From contig CP091241.1 of the NCBI GenBank assembly GCA_027627685.1, positions 2,914,396-2,978,395 on the forward strand: a stretch of DNA of 64,000 bases, read 5' to 3'. Position 1 is the stretch's first letter, and every line of letters starts with the position of its first letter. The DNA is from Hyphomonadaceae bacterium ML37. GTDB taxonomy: Bacteria > Pseudomonadota > Alphaproteobacteria > Caulobacterales > Maricaulaceae. Shown here one piece after another: positions 51,137 through 63,140 of this stretch. The notes under the pieces were generated by a model. The model worked only from the letters and a program-made list of their open reading frames with translations. It had not been told where the DNA came from and did not search any database. The translations under genes and the position numbers were made by a program.

Positions 51137-53326
51137 ATGCTGACCCGCGCCGCCCCGCCCGCGACCCTGACGCGTGATCTCGTGCTTGTCGGGGGCGGGC
51201 ATGCCCATGCACTGGTGCTGAAACGCTGGGGGATGGCGCCGCTGCCCGGTGCGCGCGTGACGCTGATCCATCCCGGCGCCACCGCGCCCTATACCGGCAT
51301 GCTGCCCGGTCATGCAGCGGGGCGCTACACGCTCGATGAACTGGAGATCGATCTGGTGCGGCTCGCCCGCTTCGCCGGGGCGCGGCTGGTGTCGGGCATG
51401 GCGCAGGGCATCGATCCGGACGCGGGGTTGGTGCACGTGACGGGGCGTGCGCCGGTGCGCTTTGACGTGTTGTCGCTGGATATCGGCATTTCGGGCGCCA
51501 TCCCCGATGCCCCCGGCGCGCAGCACATCCTCGCCGCCAAGCCGCTGGACGTGTTCGCAGCGCGCTGGGGTGGGTTCATCCGGGCGGTGCAAGCGGGCCA
51601 TGCCCGTGCGGAGGTCTGCGTTATCGGCGCGGGCGCCGCCGGGGTGGAGCTGGCGCTGGCGGCGATGCACCGTTTGAAAACATTGGACGCGCCGGACATG
51701 TCCGTCTCGCTGGTCGAGGCGCGGTCTGGCATCGTCGCAGACCTGCCCGGCGGGCCGCGCCGCGCTTTGGTGCGGGCGCTGGAGCGCGCAGGCGTGCGCG
51801 TGATCACGGGCGCCCGCATCGCGCAGGTCAGCGGCGAAGCCGTCACCCTCGCCGATGGAACCCGCCTGCCCTCCGCCCTGACCCTGTCCGCCGCCGGGGC
51901 GCGGCCTCATGGCTGGCTGGGTGAGACCGGGCTGGCCCTCAATGAGGGTTATGTGGCGGTGGATGCGCATTTGCGCAACACCTCCCACCGGAATGTGTTC
52001 GCCAGCGGCGATTGCGCCCACCTGACCCACGCGCCCCGGCCCAAGGCGGGCGTCTATGCCGTGCGCGCCGCGCCGGTACTGGCGCGCAATCTGGAAACCG
52101 TCTTGCGCGGGACGGGACAGCTGGAGCGCTTCGCGCCCCAGGGCGATTATCTGCGCCTCATTTCGCTCGGCGGCCAGCGCGCGCTGGCGGCGCGCAACGG
52201 GTTCAGCCTTTCCGGCGGCTGGGTCTGGCGCTGGAAGGACCGGATCGACCGCGACTTCATGGAGGGTCTGAGCGAGCTGCCCCTCATGGCGCCCCCGGCC
52301 CTGCCCTCGCGGGCGGCGGCGGGACGCGACGCGGACGCCCCGCCCTTGTGCGGCGGCTGCGGCGCCAAGGCGGGGCGCGCGGCTTTGGCGAGCGTCCTGT
52401 CGTCCCTGCCCGCGCCGACCCGCGCAGACCTGCTCGCCGGGCCGGGCGATGACGCGGCGGTGCTGGTCCATGGGAGCGGCGTTCAGGTGATCACCACCGA
52501 TCATGTGCGCGCCTTCACCGATGATCACGGCCTTCTGACGCGCATCGCCGCGGTGCATGCGCTGGGCGATGTGTGGGCCATGGGCGCCGCGCCCCAGGCG
52601 GCGCTGGCCCAGATCATATTGCCGCCCATGAGCACGGCCCTGCAGGCCTCCACCCTCACCGAAATCCTCGCCGAGGCGCGCGCCGTGCTGCGCGCCGCCG
52701 GGGCCGAGCTGGCGGGCGGGCATACCAGTATCGGGGCCGAGCTGACCATCGGCTTCACGATCACGGGGCTGGCGGACAAGCCGGTGCGCCAGACCAGCGC
52801 GAAGGCCGGCGATGTGCTGATCCTGACCAAACCTGTTGGAACCGGGGTGATCCTGGCCGCCGAGATGCGTCTCATAGCGCGCGGGCGCGATGTGATGGCG
52901 GCGCTGGACATGATGGCGCGGCCCCAGGGACGCGCCGCCGCGATCCTCGCCCAAGCCGCCAGCGCCATGACCGATGTGACGGGATTTGGCCTGGCCGGGC
53001 ATCTGGCCAGCCTTCTGGGACCTGAGGGTCCGGGCGCGGATCTGGTTCTGGACGCTGTGCCGGTGCTGTCCGGCGCGCTGGAGCTGGCGGGCGCAGGCGT
53101 GCGCTCATCCCTGTTTGAAGATAATCAGGCCGGCGCCGGGCCGGTGGATGCACCCTCAGGGCCCCTGCGCGACCTGCTCTTCGATCCCCAGACGTCGGGC
53201 GGTCTGCTGGCCGCTGTGCCCGCTGAACACGCAGACGCCGCGCTGGCCGCGCTGCACGAAGCAGGCGAACCGGCCTGGCGCATCGGCGGCGTGAGTGGCG
53301 ATTTTGCAGGCGTCCGGGCGCGGTGA
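51137..53326 (+). CDS. selD: Fusion of NDH-like FAD oxidoreductase and selenide, water dikinase (SelD)
   Basis: Two-domain protein of 729 aa. Residues 1-380 form a pyridine-nucleotide-disulfide/NADH-dehydrogenase-type flavoprotein: L-V-G-G-G-H-A-H near the start, V-I-G-A-G-A-A-G-V-E-L for the second nucleotide, and F-A-S-G-D-C-A. Residues 400-729 are SelD, which makes selenophosphate from selenide and ATP: C-G-A-K (C408, K411) for the catalytic pair, G-D-D-A-A-V, T-D-V-T-G-F-G-L and Q-T-S-G-G-L. C408 is encoded by a normal Cys codon. Such fusions are known in bacteria. No selA, selB, selC or selU is nearby, so the selenium use is unresolved. Confidence 0.9.
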   Translation: MLTRAAPPATLTRDLVLVGGGHAHALVLKRWGMAPLPGARVTLIHPGATAPYTGMLPGHAAGRYTLDELEIDLVRLARFAGARLVSGMAQGIDPDAGLVHVTGRAPVRFDVLSLDIGISGAIPDAPGAQHILAAKPLDVFAARWGGFIRAVQAGHARAEVCVIGAGAAGVELALAAMHRLKTLDAPDMSVSLVEARSGIVADLPGGPRRALVRALERAGVRVITGARIAQVSGEAVTLADGTRLPSALTLSAAGARPHGWLGETGLALNEGYVAVDAHLRNTSHRNVFASGDCAHLTHAPRPKAGVYAVRAAPVLARNLETVLRGTGQLERFAPQGDYLRLISLGGQRALAARNGFSLSGGWVWRWKDRIDRDFMEGLSELPLMAPPALPSRAAAGRDADAPPLCGGCGAKAGRAALASVLSSLPAPTRADLLAGPGDDAAVLVHGSGVQVITTDHVRAFTDDHGLLTRIAAVHALGDVWAMGAAPQAALAQIILPPMSTALQASTLTEILAEARAVLRAAGAELAGGHTSIGAELTIGFTITGLADKPVRQTSAKAGDVLILTKPVGTGVILAAEMRLIARGRDVMAALDMMARPQGRAAAILAQAASAMTDVTGFGLAGHLASLLGPEGPGADLVLDAVPVLSGALELAGAGVRSSLFEDNQAGAGPVDAPSGPLRDLLFDPQTSGGLLAAVPAEHADAALAALHEAGEPAWRIGGVSGDFAGVRAR

Positions 53327-58252: not shown

Positions 58253-58376
58253 GCCTGTCTCCTTGAGTTGCGTCCAGGAAGCATGAGGGCTGCAGACGGG
58301 GCCGCTGATAGCCAAGCCGCCGGACAATGGCGAAATCCATTCCCGTGAGCGCGCAAAGCCCGTAAACCTCGCCCCC

Positions 58377-60557
58377 ATGATTCACGGTCTTTCCCGTCTC
58401 GGCTTCGGCGTCTCGGGCGCTCACGGCACGCCGCTGGTACCAGCGCAGACCACGCGCCGGCTGATCGCGCGCGCGTTCGAGGGCGGCGTGCGGGTGTTCG
58501 ACGCGGCGCCCGCCTATGGCGCGGGCGAGGCGGAACGCCGTCTGGGCCGGGCCTTGCGCGACCTGCCTCGCGATCAGGTCTTTGTGTGCACAAAGGCGGG
58601 GATAGCCAGCGAGGGTGTCTCCGAGCGGTTGCGGGATTTCTCGCCCGCCGGCATCGAAACCAGCGTGCACGCCAGCCTGTCGCGGCTGGGGGTGGAGGGC
58701 GTGGACGCCCTGTTCCTGCACGGGCCGGACCCGTATGAGCTGACGGATGAGCTGTTCGCCCGGCTCGCCGCGCTGAAATCAGCGGGCGCCTTCGCGGCGC
58801 TGGGCGTCACCGGTCTGGGGCCGGAGCTGGATGCAGCCATCGCGTCGGGGCGGTTTGATCTGATGATGACGCCCGTGCACCCGTTCATCAATGCGCGCGA
58901 GGAGGCGCGTCTGGCGTCGGCGCGGGCGCGTGGCATGGCGGTGATCGCGATCCAGAGCGCCGGCGACACGCCCCCGCCCCGGCGCATGCCCCGCCAGCCG
59001 GCGGACCTGTATGCGCTGGCGCGCGCCCTGCGTCCCGCCACCCCCGGCCGGGGCCGCGTCGCTCCGGTGGAGGGCGTGCGCGCTGCGCTGGCGCGCGCGG
59101 AAGTCGACACAGTGCTGATCACGACCACGCGGCGCGCCCATCTCGACGCCCATCTGGCGGCCTGCGCCAGCGCTGGCGGAACGGGTTGGGCCCGCGCGCC
59201 GCAGGCTGCGCCGATGGCACAGGTCAATCTTGCTGAAGAAGCGGCTCCGCCAGAGGTCGCCGCACCCGCAGACGACGTCACGGCGCCGGAGCCTGACGCT
59301 GACACGGCCCTGCCCGCCTTCGCCTTTCCCGCACCGACGCGCGCCGCCGGGTTGGCGCGGCTGGAGGCGTTCACACCCGCCATGGGGGGCGTTTACGCCG
59401 CGCACCGAAATGAGGACCGGGGACCGCACGACCGCTCCAACGTCTCAGCCTTGAGCGCGCATGTGCGCCGCCGGATCATCCGCGAAGACGAGCTGGTGCG
59501 CGCCGCCATCGACGCCCACGGGCTGGAGGCGGCCGAGGCCTTCATCGGGGAGGTGTGCTGGCGCACCTACTGGAAAGGCTGGCTGGAGATGCGGCCCTCC
59601 GTGTGGGCCGACTACCGCGCCGGGCTGGCGGGCGATCTGGACGTGCTGAAGCGCGATGGCGCGATGGCGCAGCGCTACGCCGCCGCTATCGAAGGCCGCA
59701 CCGGGCTGGACTGCTTTGACGCCTGGGCGCACGAGCTCAACGAGACCGGCTATCTGCACAATCATGCGCGCATGTGGGCGGCGTCGATCTGGATCTACAC
59801 GCTGGACCTGCCCTGGCGCCTGGGCGCGGACTGGTTCCTGCGCCATCTCATCGACGCCGACCCGGCGTCGAACACGTTGAGCTGGCGCTGGGTGTGCGGA
59901 CTGCACACGCCGGGCAAGACCTATCTGGCGCGCGCGGGCAATATCGCCCGCTTCACCGGTGAGCGCTTCAAAGTGAGGGCGCCTGATCTCGCCGCCGAGG
60001 CGCCGCCTCTGGCCGTGGACCCGGGCCATCCCCCGCCCGTCCCGCTGGCGCCGGGCGCGCAGCCCGATGCCGATGCGCCCGCCTTCCTCCTGATCACCAG
60101 CGAAGACCTTCACCCGGAAAGCTGGGGCGTGGAGGGGCTGGATTTGCGCGGCGCGGCGACGCTGGATACGTCCGCCGCCCTCAGCCCGCTGCCTGTCGGA
60201 GAGGCCGCCAACGCCTTCACCCGCGCCGCGTTTGAGGACGCAAGCCAGCGCGCTGCGAGCGTGTTCGGCTTTGCGGTCAGCGAAGCGGCGGACATGGAGG
60301 CGGTCATTGCGCTCGCCCGCAAGGCGGGCGCGCGCCAGATCATCACCCAGCGCCCCTGTCAGGGCCCGGCCCGCGACGTGCTTGATTCGGCGGCGCCGGC
60401 GCTGGAGGCCGCCGGTTTGACCCTGTGCGAATTGCGCCGGGACTGGGACAGCGCCTTCTTTCCGTACGCGGACAAGGGCTTTTTCAGATTGAAGAAGGCG
60501 ATTCCGCGCGTGCTGGACGCGCTTGGTCTCATCACGGGCGCGGGTGCGCCCGGATGA
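58377..60557 (+). CDS. Aldo-keto reductase fused to photolyase/cryptochrome-like FAD domain
   Basis: Fusion protein of 726 aa. Residues 1-265 are an aldo-keto reductase with the tetrad D42, Y47 (in F-D-A-A-P-A-Y-G), K73 (C-T-K-A-G) and H115 (L-F-L-H-G-P-D). After a Pro/Glu/Ala linker, residues 314-545 are a photolyase-type FAD-binding domain: H-N-H-A-R-M (461-466), D493, D495, N499, W503, W505 and W480 align by eye to E. coli PhrB D372, D374, N378, W382, W384 and W359. Residues 566-715 resemble the photolyase N-terminal alpha/beta domain (A-R-Q-I-I-T-Q-R-P-x-x-G-P-A-R-D, then Y-A-D-K-G-F-F), here placed last. The photolyase assignment is strong; the permutation and its meaning are inferred. 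Confidence 0.8.
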   Translation: MIHGLSRLGFGVSGAHGTPLVPAQTTRRLIARAFEGGVRVFDAAPAYGAGEAERRLGRALRDLPRDQVFVCTKAGIASEGVSERLRDFSPAGIETSVHASLSRLGVEGVDALFLHGPDPYELTDELFARLAALKSAGAFAALGVTGLGPELDAAIASGRFDLMMTPVHPFINAREEARLASARARGMAVIAIQSAGDTPPPRRMPRQPADLYALARALRPATPGRGRVAPVEGVRAALARAEVDTVLITTTRRAHLDAHLAACASAGGTGWARAPQAAPMAQVNLAEEAAPPEVAAPADDVTAPEPDADTALPAFAFPAPTRAAGLARLEAFTPAMGGVYAAHRNEDRGPHDRSNVSALSAHVRRRIIREDELVRAAIDAHGLEAAEAFIGEVCWRTYWKGWLEMRPSVWADYRAGLAGDLDVLKRDGAMAQRYAAAIEGRTGLDCFDAWAHELNETGYLHNHARMWAASIWIYTLDLPWRLGADWFLRHLIDADPASNTLSWRWVCGLHTPGKTYLARAGNIARFTGERFKVRAPDLAAEAPPLAVDPGHPPPVPLAPGAQPDADAPAFLLITSEDLHPESWGVEGLDLRGAATLDTSAALSPLPVGEAANAFTRAAFEDASQRAASVFGFAVSEAADMEAVIALARKAGARQIITQRPCQGPARDVLDSAAPALEAAGLTLCELRRDWDSAFFPYADKGFFRLKKAIPRVLDALGLITGAGAPG

Positions 60558-60635: not shown

Positions 60636-61583
60636 ATGCAGACTGATCTGCTGGCGAAACTGAAGGCGCTTGCCGAGCCCTCGCGCCTGCGCATCGTGTC
60701 GCTGCTGTCCCAGGGCGAAATGACGGTGAGCGAAATCATCCAGGTGCTGGGCCAGAGCCAGCCGCGCGTGTCGCGCCACCTGAAGCTGCTCGCGGACGCG
60801 GGATTGTGCGAGCGCTTTCCCGAAGGCGGCTGGGTGTTCTACCGGCTGGTGCGCACCGGACCGGTCTCGCGGCTGGCCGCGCTGATCGAGGATTTCACCG
60901 ATACTGACGACCCCCAGGTGCAGCGTGACCGCCAGCGCCTCAGCGAGCTCAAACGCCTGCGCGCCCAGAGCGCCGAACGGTTTTTCGAGGCCGCCGCCGC
61001 GCAATGGGCGCAGATTCGCTCCATGCATTTCTCTGAAGGCGCGGTGGAGACCGAGCTGGTGCGGCTGGTCGCCGGGCGGCGCTTCAAAAGCCATGTGGAT
61101 GTGGGCACGGGCACGGGCCGCATGCTGGAGCTGTTCAGCGCCCAGGCCGATGAAGGCATGGGCGTGGATCTGTCGCGCGAAATGCTGTCGGTGGCGCGCG
61201 CCAAGCTGTCCGAAGCCGGATTGAGCACGCGCTTCGTGCGCCAGGCGGACGCCTCGGCCTTGCCGGTGGAAGATGGCGCAGCCGACCTCGTCACGGTGCA
61301 TCAGGTGCTGCATTATCTCTCCGACCCGCGCGAGGCGGTGCGCGAATGCGCGCGCGTGCTGGCGCCGGGCGGCGTGTTGCTGATCGTGGATTTCGCCGAG
61401 CACCGCCACGAGGCCCTGCGCGTGGAGCATCATCACCGGCATCTCGGCTTCCCCCCCGCCCAGGTCACCGGCTGGTTGACCGGCGCCGGGCTCGACCTCA
61501 AACAGCTTGTCACGCTTGAGCCCGAAGGCATCAAGGGCGGGCTGACCGTACTGATCTGGGCCGCCGAACACCGGCAGGACTGA
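60636..61583 (+). CDS. ArsR-family regulator with SAM methyltransferase domain
   Basis: Regulator of 315 aa. The N-terminal winged helix (1-95) has A-L-A-E-P-S-R-L-R-I-V and Q-P-R-V-S-R-H-L-K-L-L, typical ArsR; there is no metal-binding Cys-x-Cys. Residues 140-315 form a class I methyltransferase fold with H-V-D-V-G-T-G-T-G-R and D-L-V-T-V-H-Q-V-L-H-Y. Such proteins bind SAM or SAH and in many alphaproteobacteria control methionine-cycle genes; none is near here, the next gene being pgi 18 bp later. Confidence 0.88.
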   Translation: MQTDLLAKLKALAEPSRLRIVSLLSQGEMTVSEIIQVLGQSQPRVSRHLKLLADAGLCERFPEGGWVFYRLVRTGPVSRLAALIEDFTDTDDPQVQRDRQRLSELKRLRAQSAERFFEAAAAQWAQIRSMHFSEGAVETELVRLVAGRRFKSHVDVGTGTGRMLELFSAQADEGMGVDLSREMLSVARAKLSEAGLSTRFVRQADASALPVEDGAADLVTVHQVLHYLSDPREAVRECARVLAPGGVLLIVDFAEHRHEALRVEHHHRHLGFPPAQVTGWLTGAGLDLKQLVTLEPEGIKGGLTVLIWAAEHRQD

Positions 61584-61601: not shown

Positions 61602-63140
61602 ATGACCCTCGCTACTCTGACCGCCCACGCTGACCGCCTCGCCAGCGCGGACATGAGCGGCCTGATCGCGCAGCCGGGCCGCGATGACGCGCTGGTGGTG
61701 GAGGCCGCCGGACTGGTGTTTGACGCCCGCCGCCAGCGGATCGATCTGGAGGCCTGGGCCGGCCTGCTGGGCGCCGCCGCCGAGGCCCGAATCCCGGACG
61801 CCTTCGCGGCCATGATGCGCGGCGACATCGTCAACACCACGGAAGGCCGCCCGTCTTTGCACGCCGCCTGCCGCAATCCGGACCGGCTCGCGGACAAGGC
61901 GCTGGCGGACCGGCTGCGCGACGCCCGCGCGCGCACCGCCGCCTTTACGGATGCGACTGAAGCGCCTGATGCGATGGACGGTCATCCCTTGCGGCGCATC
62001 ATCAATATCGGCATTGGCGGGTCGGATCTGGGGCCGCGCTTCATCTATGACGCGCTGAAAGCCTGGCGGCGCGAGGGGGTCGAAGCGCGCTTCGTGTCCA
62101 ATCTCGACCCGGCCGATCTGGACGATGCGCTGGAGGGCGCTGAGGCCGAGACCACGCTGGTGGTCATCGTGTCGAAATCCTTCACCACCCAGGAAACCCT
62201 GATGAACGGCCAGGCCGCGCGCGACTGGCTCGCCGCACGGCTGGGCGAGGCGGGCGCCAATGCGCGCCTGTGCGCCGCCACCGCGGCGCCAGACAAGGCG
62301 GCGGCATTCGGCGTGGACAAGGCGCGCATCTTCCCGTTCGAGGACGGGGTGGGCGGTCGCTATTCGCTGTGGTCGCCGGCGGGGATCGCCATCGAGCTGG
62401 CGGTGGGCTCGCGGGTCTATACGCGCCTGCTGCACGGCGCACGGGTGATGGACGACCATGTGATTGACGCGCCGCCCGGCGCCAATATGGCCATCGCCAA
62501 AGGCCTGGTGGACGCGTGGAACCGGGCCGCGCGCAGGCTCCCCTCGCGCTGCGTCACGGCGTATTCCTCTCGGCTGGAGCGCCTGCCTGCCTATCTGCAG
62601 CAGCTGGAGATGGAAAGTCTGGGCAAGTCGGTGACGCACGGCGGCGAAGCCCTCGCCCCGGCCCATTCCGGCGCGCTGGTCTGGGGCGGGCGCGGCTCGG
62701 ACCTGCAACACTCGGTCTTTCAGTGGCTGCATCAGGGTCAGGACGAGGCGCCGGTGGATTTCATCGCCCTCAAGGACGCGGTCTTCATGGAAGACCCGCG
62801 CGCCCGCGCCCTCAACGCCAATCTGGCCGCCCAGGGCGCGGCGCTGACCACCGGACGCTCCGGCGAGGGCGCACTGGCCGCTCACAAGGCCATCGCCGGC
62901 GGGCGGGCGAGCAGCACGATCCTCCTGCCCGGCCTGAGCCCGGAGAGCCTGGGCGCGCTGGTCGCTCTGCATGAGCATAAAGTCGCAGTGGAAGCCACGC
63001 TTTACGGTCTGAACCCGTTTGACCAGTGGGGGGTGGAGCTGGGCAAGGCGCTTGCCCGTGACCTGCTTTCCGGCGACACGGGCGGCTTCGATCCCGTTGC
63101 GCTGGACCTCGCCCGCCGTCTGGGGCTGGACGCCTCCTAG
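61602..63140 (+). CDS. pgi: Glucose-6-phosphate isomerase
   Basis: Glycolytic/gluconeogenic isomerase of 512 aa. Signatures: N-I-G-I-G-G-S-D-L-G-P, V-S-K-S-F-T-T-Q-E-T, G-G-R-Y-S-L-W-S, and G-K-S-V-T-H-G-G-E. The active-site segment reads V-W-G-G-R-G-S-D-L-Q-H (residues 360-370), whereas the standard pattern is W-G-E-P-G-T-N-G-Q-H with the catalytic Glu; here G363 sits at the Glu position. The rest of the fold is intact. It is 18 bp after the ArsR-methyltransferase and 70 bp before tktA. Confidence 0.93.
   Translation: MTLATLTAHADRLASADMSGLIAQPGRDDALVVEAAGLVFDARRQRIDLEAWAGLLGAAAEARIPDAFAAMMRGDIVNTTEGRPSLHAACRNPDRLADKALADRLRDARARTAAFTDATEAPDAMDGHPLRRIINIGIGGSDLGPRFIYDALKAWRREGVEARFVSNLDPADLDDALEGAEAETTLVVIVSKSFTTQETLMNGQAARDWLAARLGEAGANARLCAATAAPDKAAAFGVDKARIFPFEDGVGGRYSLWSPAGIAIELAVGSRVYTRLLHGARVMDDHVIDAPPGANMAIAKGLVDAWNRAARRLPSRCVTAYSSRLERLPAYLQQLEMESLGKSVTHGGEALAPAHSGALVWGGRGSDLQHSVFQWLHQGQDEAPVDFIALKDAVFMEDPRARALNANLAAQGAALTTGRSGEGALAAHKAIAGGRASSTILLPGLSPESLGALVALHEHKVAVEATLYGLNPFDQWGVELGKALARDLLSGDTGGFDPVALDLARRLGLDAS

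Follow-up and report, generated by a model that had tools for sequence, protein, structure and literature searches.

The window, that is, the whole stretch of 64,000 nucleotides analysed here, spans positions 2914396-2978395 of C1, the single contig of a 3.04 Mb genome. An uninterrupted frame of 726 codons on its forward strand (58377..60557, +) encodes an aldo-keto reductase (AKR) continuing into a photolyase-type FAD domain, as a preliminary description of this DNA had claimed and as Pfam searches bore out (Aldo_ket_red at residues 8-193, E 6e-27; FAD_binding_7 at residues 389-517, E 8e-23). The AKR domain (PF00248) occupies residues 1-262 (58377..59162, +) and is followed by a Pro/Ala/Glu-rich linker of ~55 residues (263-317; 59163..59327, +). 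The remainder of the protein is a complete short photolyase (residues ~318-726), consisting of an FAD-binding domain (PF03441; residues 318-535; 59328..59981, +) and a C-terminal alpha/beta 'Z-domain' (residues ~567-715; 60075..60521, +). A putative -10-like element, GTAAAC (58361..58368, +), lies 14 nt before the AKR ATG and probably directs a near-leaderless start. Two conserved neighbours, assigned by Pfam and synteny, are found downstream: an ArsR-family regulator/methyltransferase (60636..61583, +) and a phosphoglucose isomerase (61602..63140, +). Another composite frame was noticed elsewhere in the window, where 729 amino acids (51137-53326, +) join a pyridine-nucleotide-disulphide oxidoreductase domain to AIR-synthase-type (SelD-like) domains.

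The fused frame occurs in three species of one genus: in the window, in G001 (83% identical, full length) and in G013 (83%, truncated where its contig stops). A sequencing error joining two genes was ruled out, as G001 and G013 carry the same continuous frame at 82-83% protein identity, with linkers that differ in length yet are all multiples of 3. A literature search for AKR-photolyase fusions gave nothing relevant.

The aldo-keto reductase half

The catalytic tetrad D42/Y47/K73/H115, recognized in the preliminary description, is identical in 19/19 aligned orthologues. The closest solved structures by sequence are L-galactose dehydrogenase (7ezi) and IolS (1pyf), which the AKR part resembles in this tetrad and in AKR-type sequence over residues 6-267. 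It differs from known AKRs in being short (~262 aa) and family-specific, in its diverged C-terminal part (TTTR..HL motif) and in its fusion to a photolyase. The AKR half should perform NAD(P)H-dependent reduction of some carbonyl compound.

The photolyase half

The closest solved relatives of the second half by sequence are DNA photolyases. Residues W480, D493, D495, N499, W503 and W505, put forward earlier as FAD-site and photolyase-type residues, are invariant in a 38-sequence alignment. W480 and W503 form an invariant Trp dyad, and in a profile alignment to the A. nidulans photolyase the column facing the third Trp of the classical triad (E. coli W306) is not a Trp column. The absence of this third Trp, as claimed before, is thus supported, while its assignment to Asp427 is uncertain.

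Structure prediction of the photolyase half with AlphaFold2 (49 sequences) gave a confident model (pLDDT 95.6, pTM 0.92), with pLDDT mostly >94 in the FAD domain and ~97 in the Z-domain (569-715). The C-terminal part folds as a five-strand alpha/beta domain, and the proposed domain order AKR-FAD-alpha/beta was borne out by Pfam (FAD_binding_7) and this model. The FAD domain is folded like that of CRY-DASH and class I photolyases (VIA-align Z ~16-18 over 208-218 residues, the matches spanning the FAD domain only). Similarity of the Z-domain to the photolyase N-terminal domain is weak: comparison with a PF00875-type domain by hhalign gave P 9.5e-4, a probability of 22% and a score of 27.3, against 27.1 for the best of 200 shuffled-column decoys. 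PF00875 (DNA_photolyase) itself was detected in 1/36 members (E 0.056), and searching PDB sequences with a profile of the Z-domain returned weak, unrelated alpha/beta proteins only.

Homologues of residues 312-726 were found in at least 588 bacterial genome stretches as free-standing proteins of ~400-430 aa; the 80 that were kept are mostly from Alphaproteobacteria, with some from Gamma- and Betaproteobacteria. Homologues at 42-63% identity fall in the same bacterial groups as the characterised NewPHLs A8LJA9 and M7YZC8. In the passages of PMC13274461, PMC9426592 and PMC9649867 that refer to Emmerich 2020 and Xu 2021, the NewPHL/SPL topology is given as one in which the alpha/beta domain comes after the FAD domain. 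The first two, citing Emmerich et al. 2020, describe this inverted topology together with repair of CPDs in single-stranded DNA (PMC13274461, PMC9426592), and NewPHLs are further said to possess 'a mere Trp dyad' (PMC8948257). Since inverted order and Trp dyad are both published NewPHL traits, they belong to the family and are not peculiar to this locus. Of the 'permuted' domain inferred in the preliminary description, the order FAD-then-alpha/beta therefore stands; its novelty does not, as this is the known NewPHL/SPL architecture, free-standing in hundreds of genome stretches, and a novel permuted photolyase was ruled out.

Compared with published descriptions of NewPHL/SPL CPD photolyases (e.g. 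Prochlorococcus Phr7), the second half is alike in its N-terminal FAD domain and C-terminal alpha/beta Z-domain, its size of ~400 aa, its conserved FAD and photolyase residues, its Trp dyad without third Trp and its alphaproteobacterial distribution; the AKR and linker at the N-terminus are found only in the fusion. Class I and CRY-DASH photolyases (1dnp, 1owl, 2j4d) share the FAD domain fold with VIA-align Z of 16.7-17.8, but the fusion has the reversed domain order, has no N-terminal antenna domain and misses the third Trp. The AKR fusion is what is new at this locus, and it extends the NewPHL domain architecture. By analogy with characterised NewPHLs, the photolyase half is predicted to bind FAD, to be photoreduced via W480 and W503 as its Trp dyad and to repair UV dimers, presumably in single-stranded DNA.

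The NewPHL gene of several lineages has a canonical photolyase (DNA_photolyase + FAD_binding_7) as its immediate or very close neighbour (L018, L020, L037, L071, L086, L087 and L098; Pfam covered L018, L037, L071, L086 and L087). Such side-by-side arrangements represent tandem photorepair genes.

Distribution and origin of the fusion

The locus order in the genus, established by Pfam and synteny, is AKR - NewPHL - ArsR/methyltransferase - phosphoglucose isomerase. AKR and NewPHL genes lie side by side in one reading frame in G009, G008, G007 and G014, where the AKR stops at its own TGA. They are unfused and overlap in different frames in G012, and in G065, of another genus, they are adjacent with overlapping open frames but are separate genes. 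G006, G004 and G062 have the ArsR/methyltransferase gene directly after the AKR, with no NewPHL between. The flanking neighbours are kept at these loci (L155/L156 in G006, L157 in G004, L152 in G062), which indicates that this site repeatedly lacks the photolyase. In G002, G003, G005, G010 and G011 the AKR has no direct contact with the NewPHL locus, but lies on another contig or ~2 to 6 kb off.

Among the family genomes, the AKR is present in 72/137 and NewPHL in 22/137, with ~55 harbouring the AKR without NewPHL; each gene has been lost or moved independently. This particular AKR was not found in the fetched flanks of any of the 80 NewPHL loci kept from genome contigs (0/80). The domain order of the fusion did not recur in more distant relatives, as 398 genomes of the order and 385 of the class yielded no other NewPHL fusion. 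Four long open frames with NewPHL that emerged from this search were rejected as GC-rich frames with no second domain recognisable by eye. A conserved functional pairing of AKR and NewPHL was likewise dismissed, none being seen beyond the genus and the one neighbouring species G065.

In a tree of NewPHL domains, the three fused proteins group with that of unfused G012 and then with that of G009, with 100/100 support for the five. As the fused species fall in one clade with G012 and the genes of sister species are adjacent but stop-separated or out of frame, a single origin of the fusion is probable, through a small indel that abolished the stop codon at the 3' end of the AKR gene. In this small clade of an Oceanicaulis-like genus, such an indel would have set the AKR in frame with the adjacent NewPHL gene, yielding a recent composite gene.

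Promoter elements and the ancestral start of NewPHL

At loci L001-L013, -10-like elements are found ~13-14 nt before the ATGs of both AKR and NewPHL, which suggests near-leaderless transcripts and separate promoters despite the adjacency of the genes. A CTA-type element precedes the NewPHL ATG by 13-14 nt in 11/11 unfused genes (genus plus G065) and resembles the Caulobacter RpoD -10 box GCTANAWC (PMC8144410). The corresponding site in the window (59197..59204, +), a putative remnant of the ancestral NewPHL promoter, reads GCCGCAGG, whereas unfused relatives have CTANNTC-like sequences. Among the fused species, G001 has kept the element intact (GCTAAATG), G013 carries an altered form (GCTGAAGC) and the window has lost it. 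From this loss we infer that the window species now produces its photolyase only as a fusion. Junction alignment places an ATG (Met280; 59214..59216, +) at the ancestral NewPHL start position, followed by a degenerate clamp motif, QVNLA, and this internal ATG could still yield some free NewPHL.

The unfused NewPHLs of the genus begin with MSQxDLF-type peptides (L004, L005, L006, L007, L009, L010, L011, L012 and L013), and that of L008 begins with the variant MSTQELF. The pattern Qx[SDE]LF is matched by 9/10 unfused NewPHL N-termini, against a mean of 0.04 and a maximum of 2 for shuffled tails. QxxLF is the consensus for binding to the bacterial sliding clamp (PMC12309361), and DnaE of the same genome carries QASLF. 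These likenesses suggest that the presumed single-stranded DNA photolyases of the genus may dock on the replication clamp via a QxxLF-like motif; a literature search found no paper linking a photolyase with a clamp-binding motif. The fused proteins, in contrast to the free NewPHLs of the genus, are without the motif, which has decayed to MAQVNLAEE (window site 59214-59231), MAQNDLPDE and MIQTERPE, as one would predict if this N-terminus had ceased to be free.

It might be argued that the fusion is a neutral accident with no function of its own, free NewPHL still being made by internal initiation at Met280. This methionine is indeed kept in 3/3 fused species, and G001 retains its -10-like element. 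However, the element is lost or altered in the window and G013, the clamp-like motif has decayed in all three species and the frame of the linker is constrained (see below), so that a neutral accident is considered unlikely.

Selection on the domains and the linker

Purifying selection still acts on both domains. Comparisons among the three fused genes gave dN/dS values of 0.14-0.15 (AKR), 0.13-0.21 (FAD domain) and 0.23-0.34 (Z-domain). The linker ranges from 39 to 65 residues among the fused species, differing by whole codons only, and the span from TTR to PTR measures 210, 237 and 159 nt. Synonymous changes in its sequence mildly exceed what neutrality would predict (P 0.016-0.022 in three comparisons that are not independent). 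Judging from the sequences compared, the fusion is real and is maintained by selection. Fixation in three species and growth of the linker without loss of frame could alternatively be read as a sign that tethering itself is useful.

Independent or coupled activities

The preliminary description had suggested that the AKR reduces the flavin in the dark or that light controls carbonyl reduction. Neither idea found support, as most genomes have the partners at separate places, a single small clade has them fused and the linker between them is long and variable. According to the first, NAD(P)H of the AKR would maintain the FAD of the photolyase in its reduced state in the dark, the AKR serving as a built-in flavin reductase that keeps the enzyme always repair-ready. 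AKR hydride acceptors are carbonyls, not a flavin buried in another domain, which counts against this possibility. The two proteins are physically linked, and an extra electron source could help NewPHLs, which have a Trp dyad only and in which ~90% of the photoinduced pairs recombine within nanoseconds (PMC8948257). In nearly all genomes, however, NewPHL lacks this AKR as a neighbour, the many family genomes with an AKR but without NewPHL argue in the same direction, and the linker is long and variable, making dark reduction very improbable. According to the second idea, the photolyase half would be a cryptochrome-like sensor switching the AKR on or off. A photoactive flavin domain is indeed fused to an enzyme here, but all photolyase-type residues are kept, the FAD and Z-domains evolve like those of free-standing NewPHLs and the linker, so variable in length, offers no rigid or conserved inter-domain element; light control is regarded as even less probable.

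More generally, AKR and NewPHL may be functionally coupled, with NAD(P)H electrons or docking of the AKR keeping FAD reduced, or blue light modulating the reductase. A full-length model has pLDDT 30-50 in the AKR half, its alignment containing no AKR homologue. As the two genes do not co-occur more widely, the linker is not conserved and the model is unusable at the interface, nothing supports coupling, and it is deemed improbable.

The best explanation, with a probability of roughly 0.7, is a bifunctional fusion with two independent activities, a recent composite gene formed by an indel, in which the photolyase is expressed from the AKR promoter. The halves would act independently across a flexible linker, each retaining the activity expected of it, and expression of the photolyase would have been taken over by the AKR promoter.

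If coupling were nevertheless true, this protein would amount to a photolyase that carries its own source of electrons for the dark, or to an AKR gated by light. The fusion is also a naturally occurring construct with which to examine whether linkage of an NAD(P)H enzyme to a photolyase alters the redox state of the flavin. The relatives show each step of the process, from separate, adjacent and overlapping genes to fused genes and subsequent loss of the downstream promoter, which makes this locus a clean example of the birth of a gene fusion.
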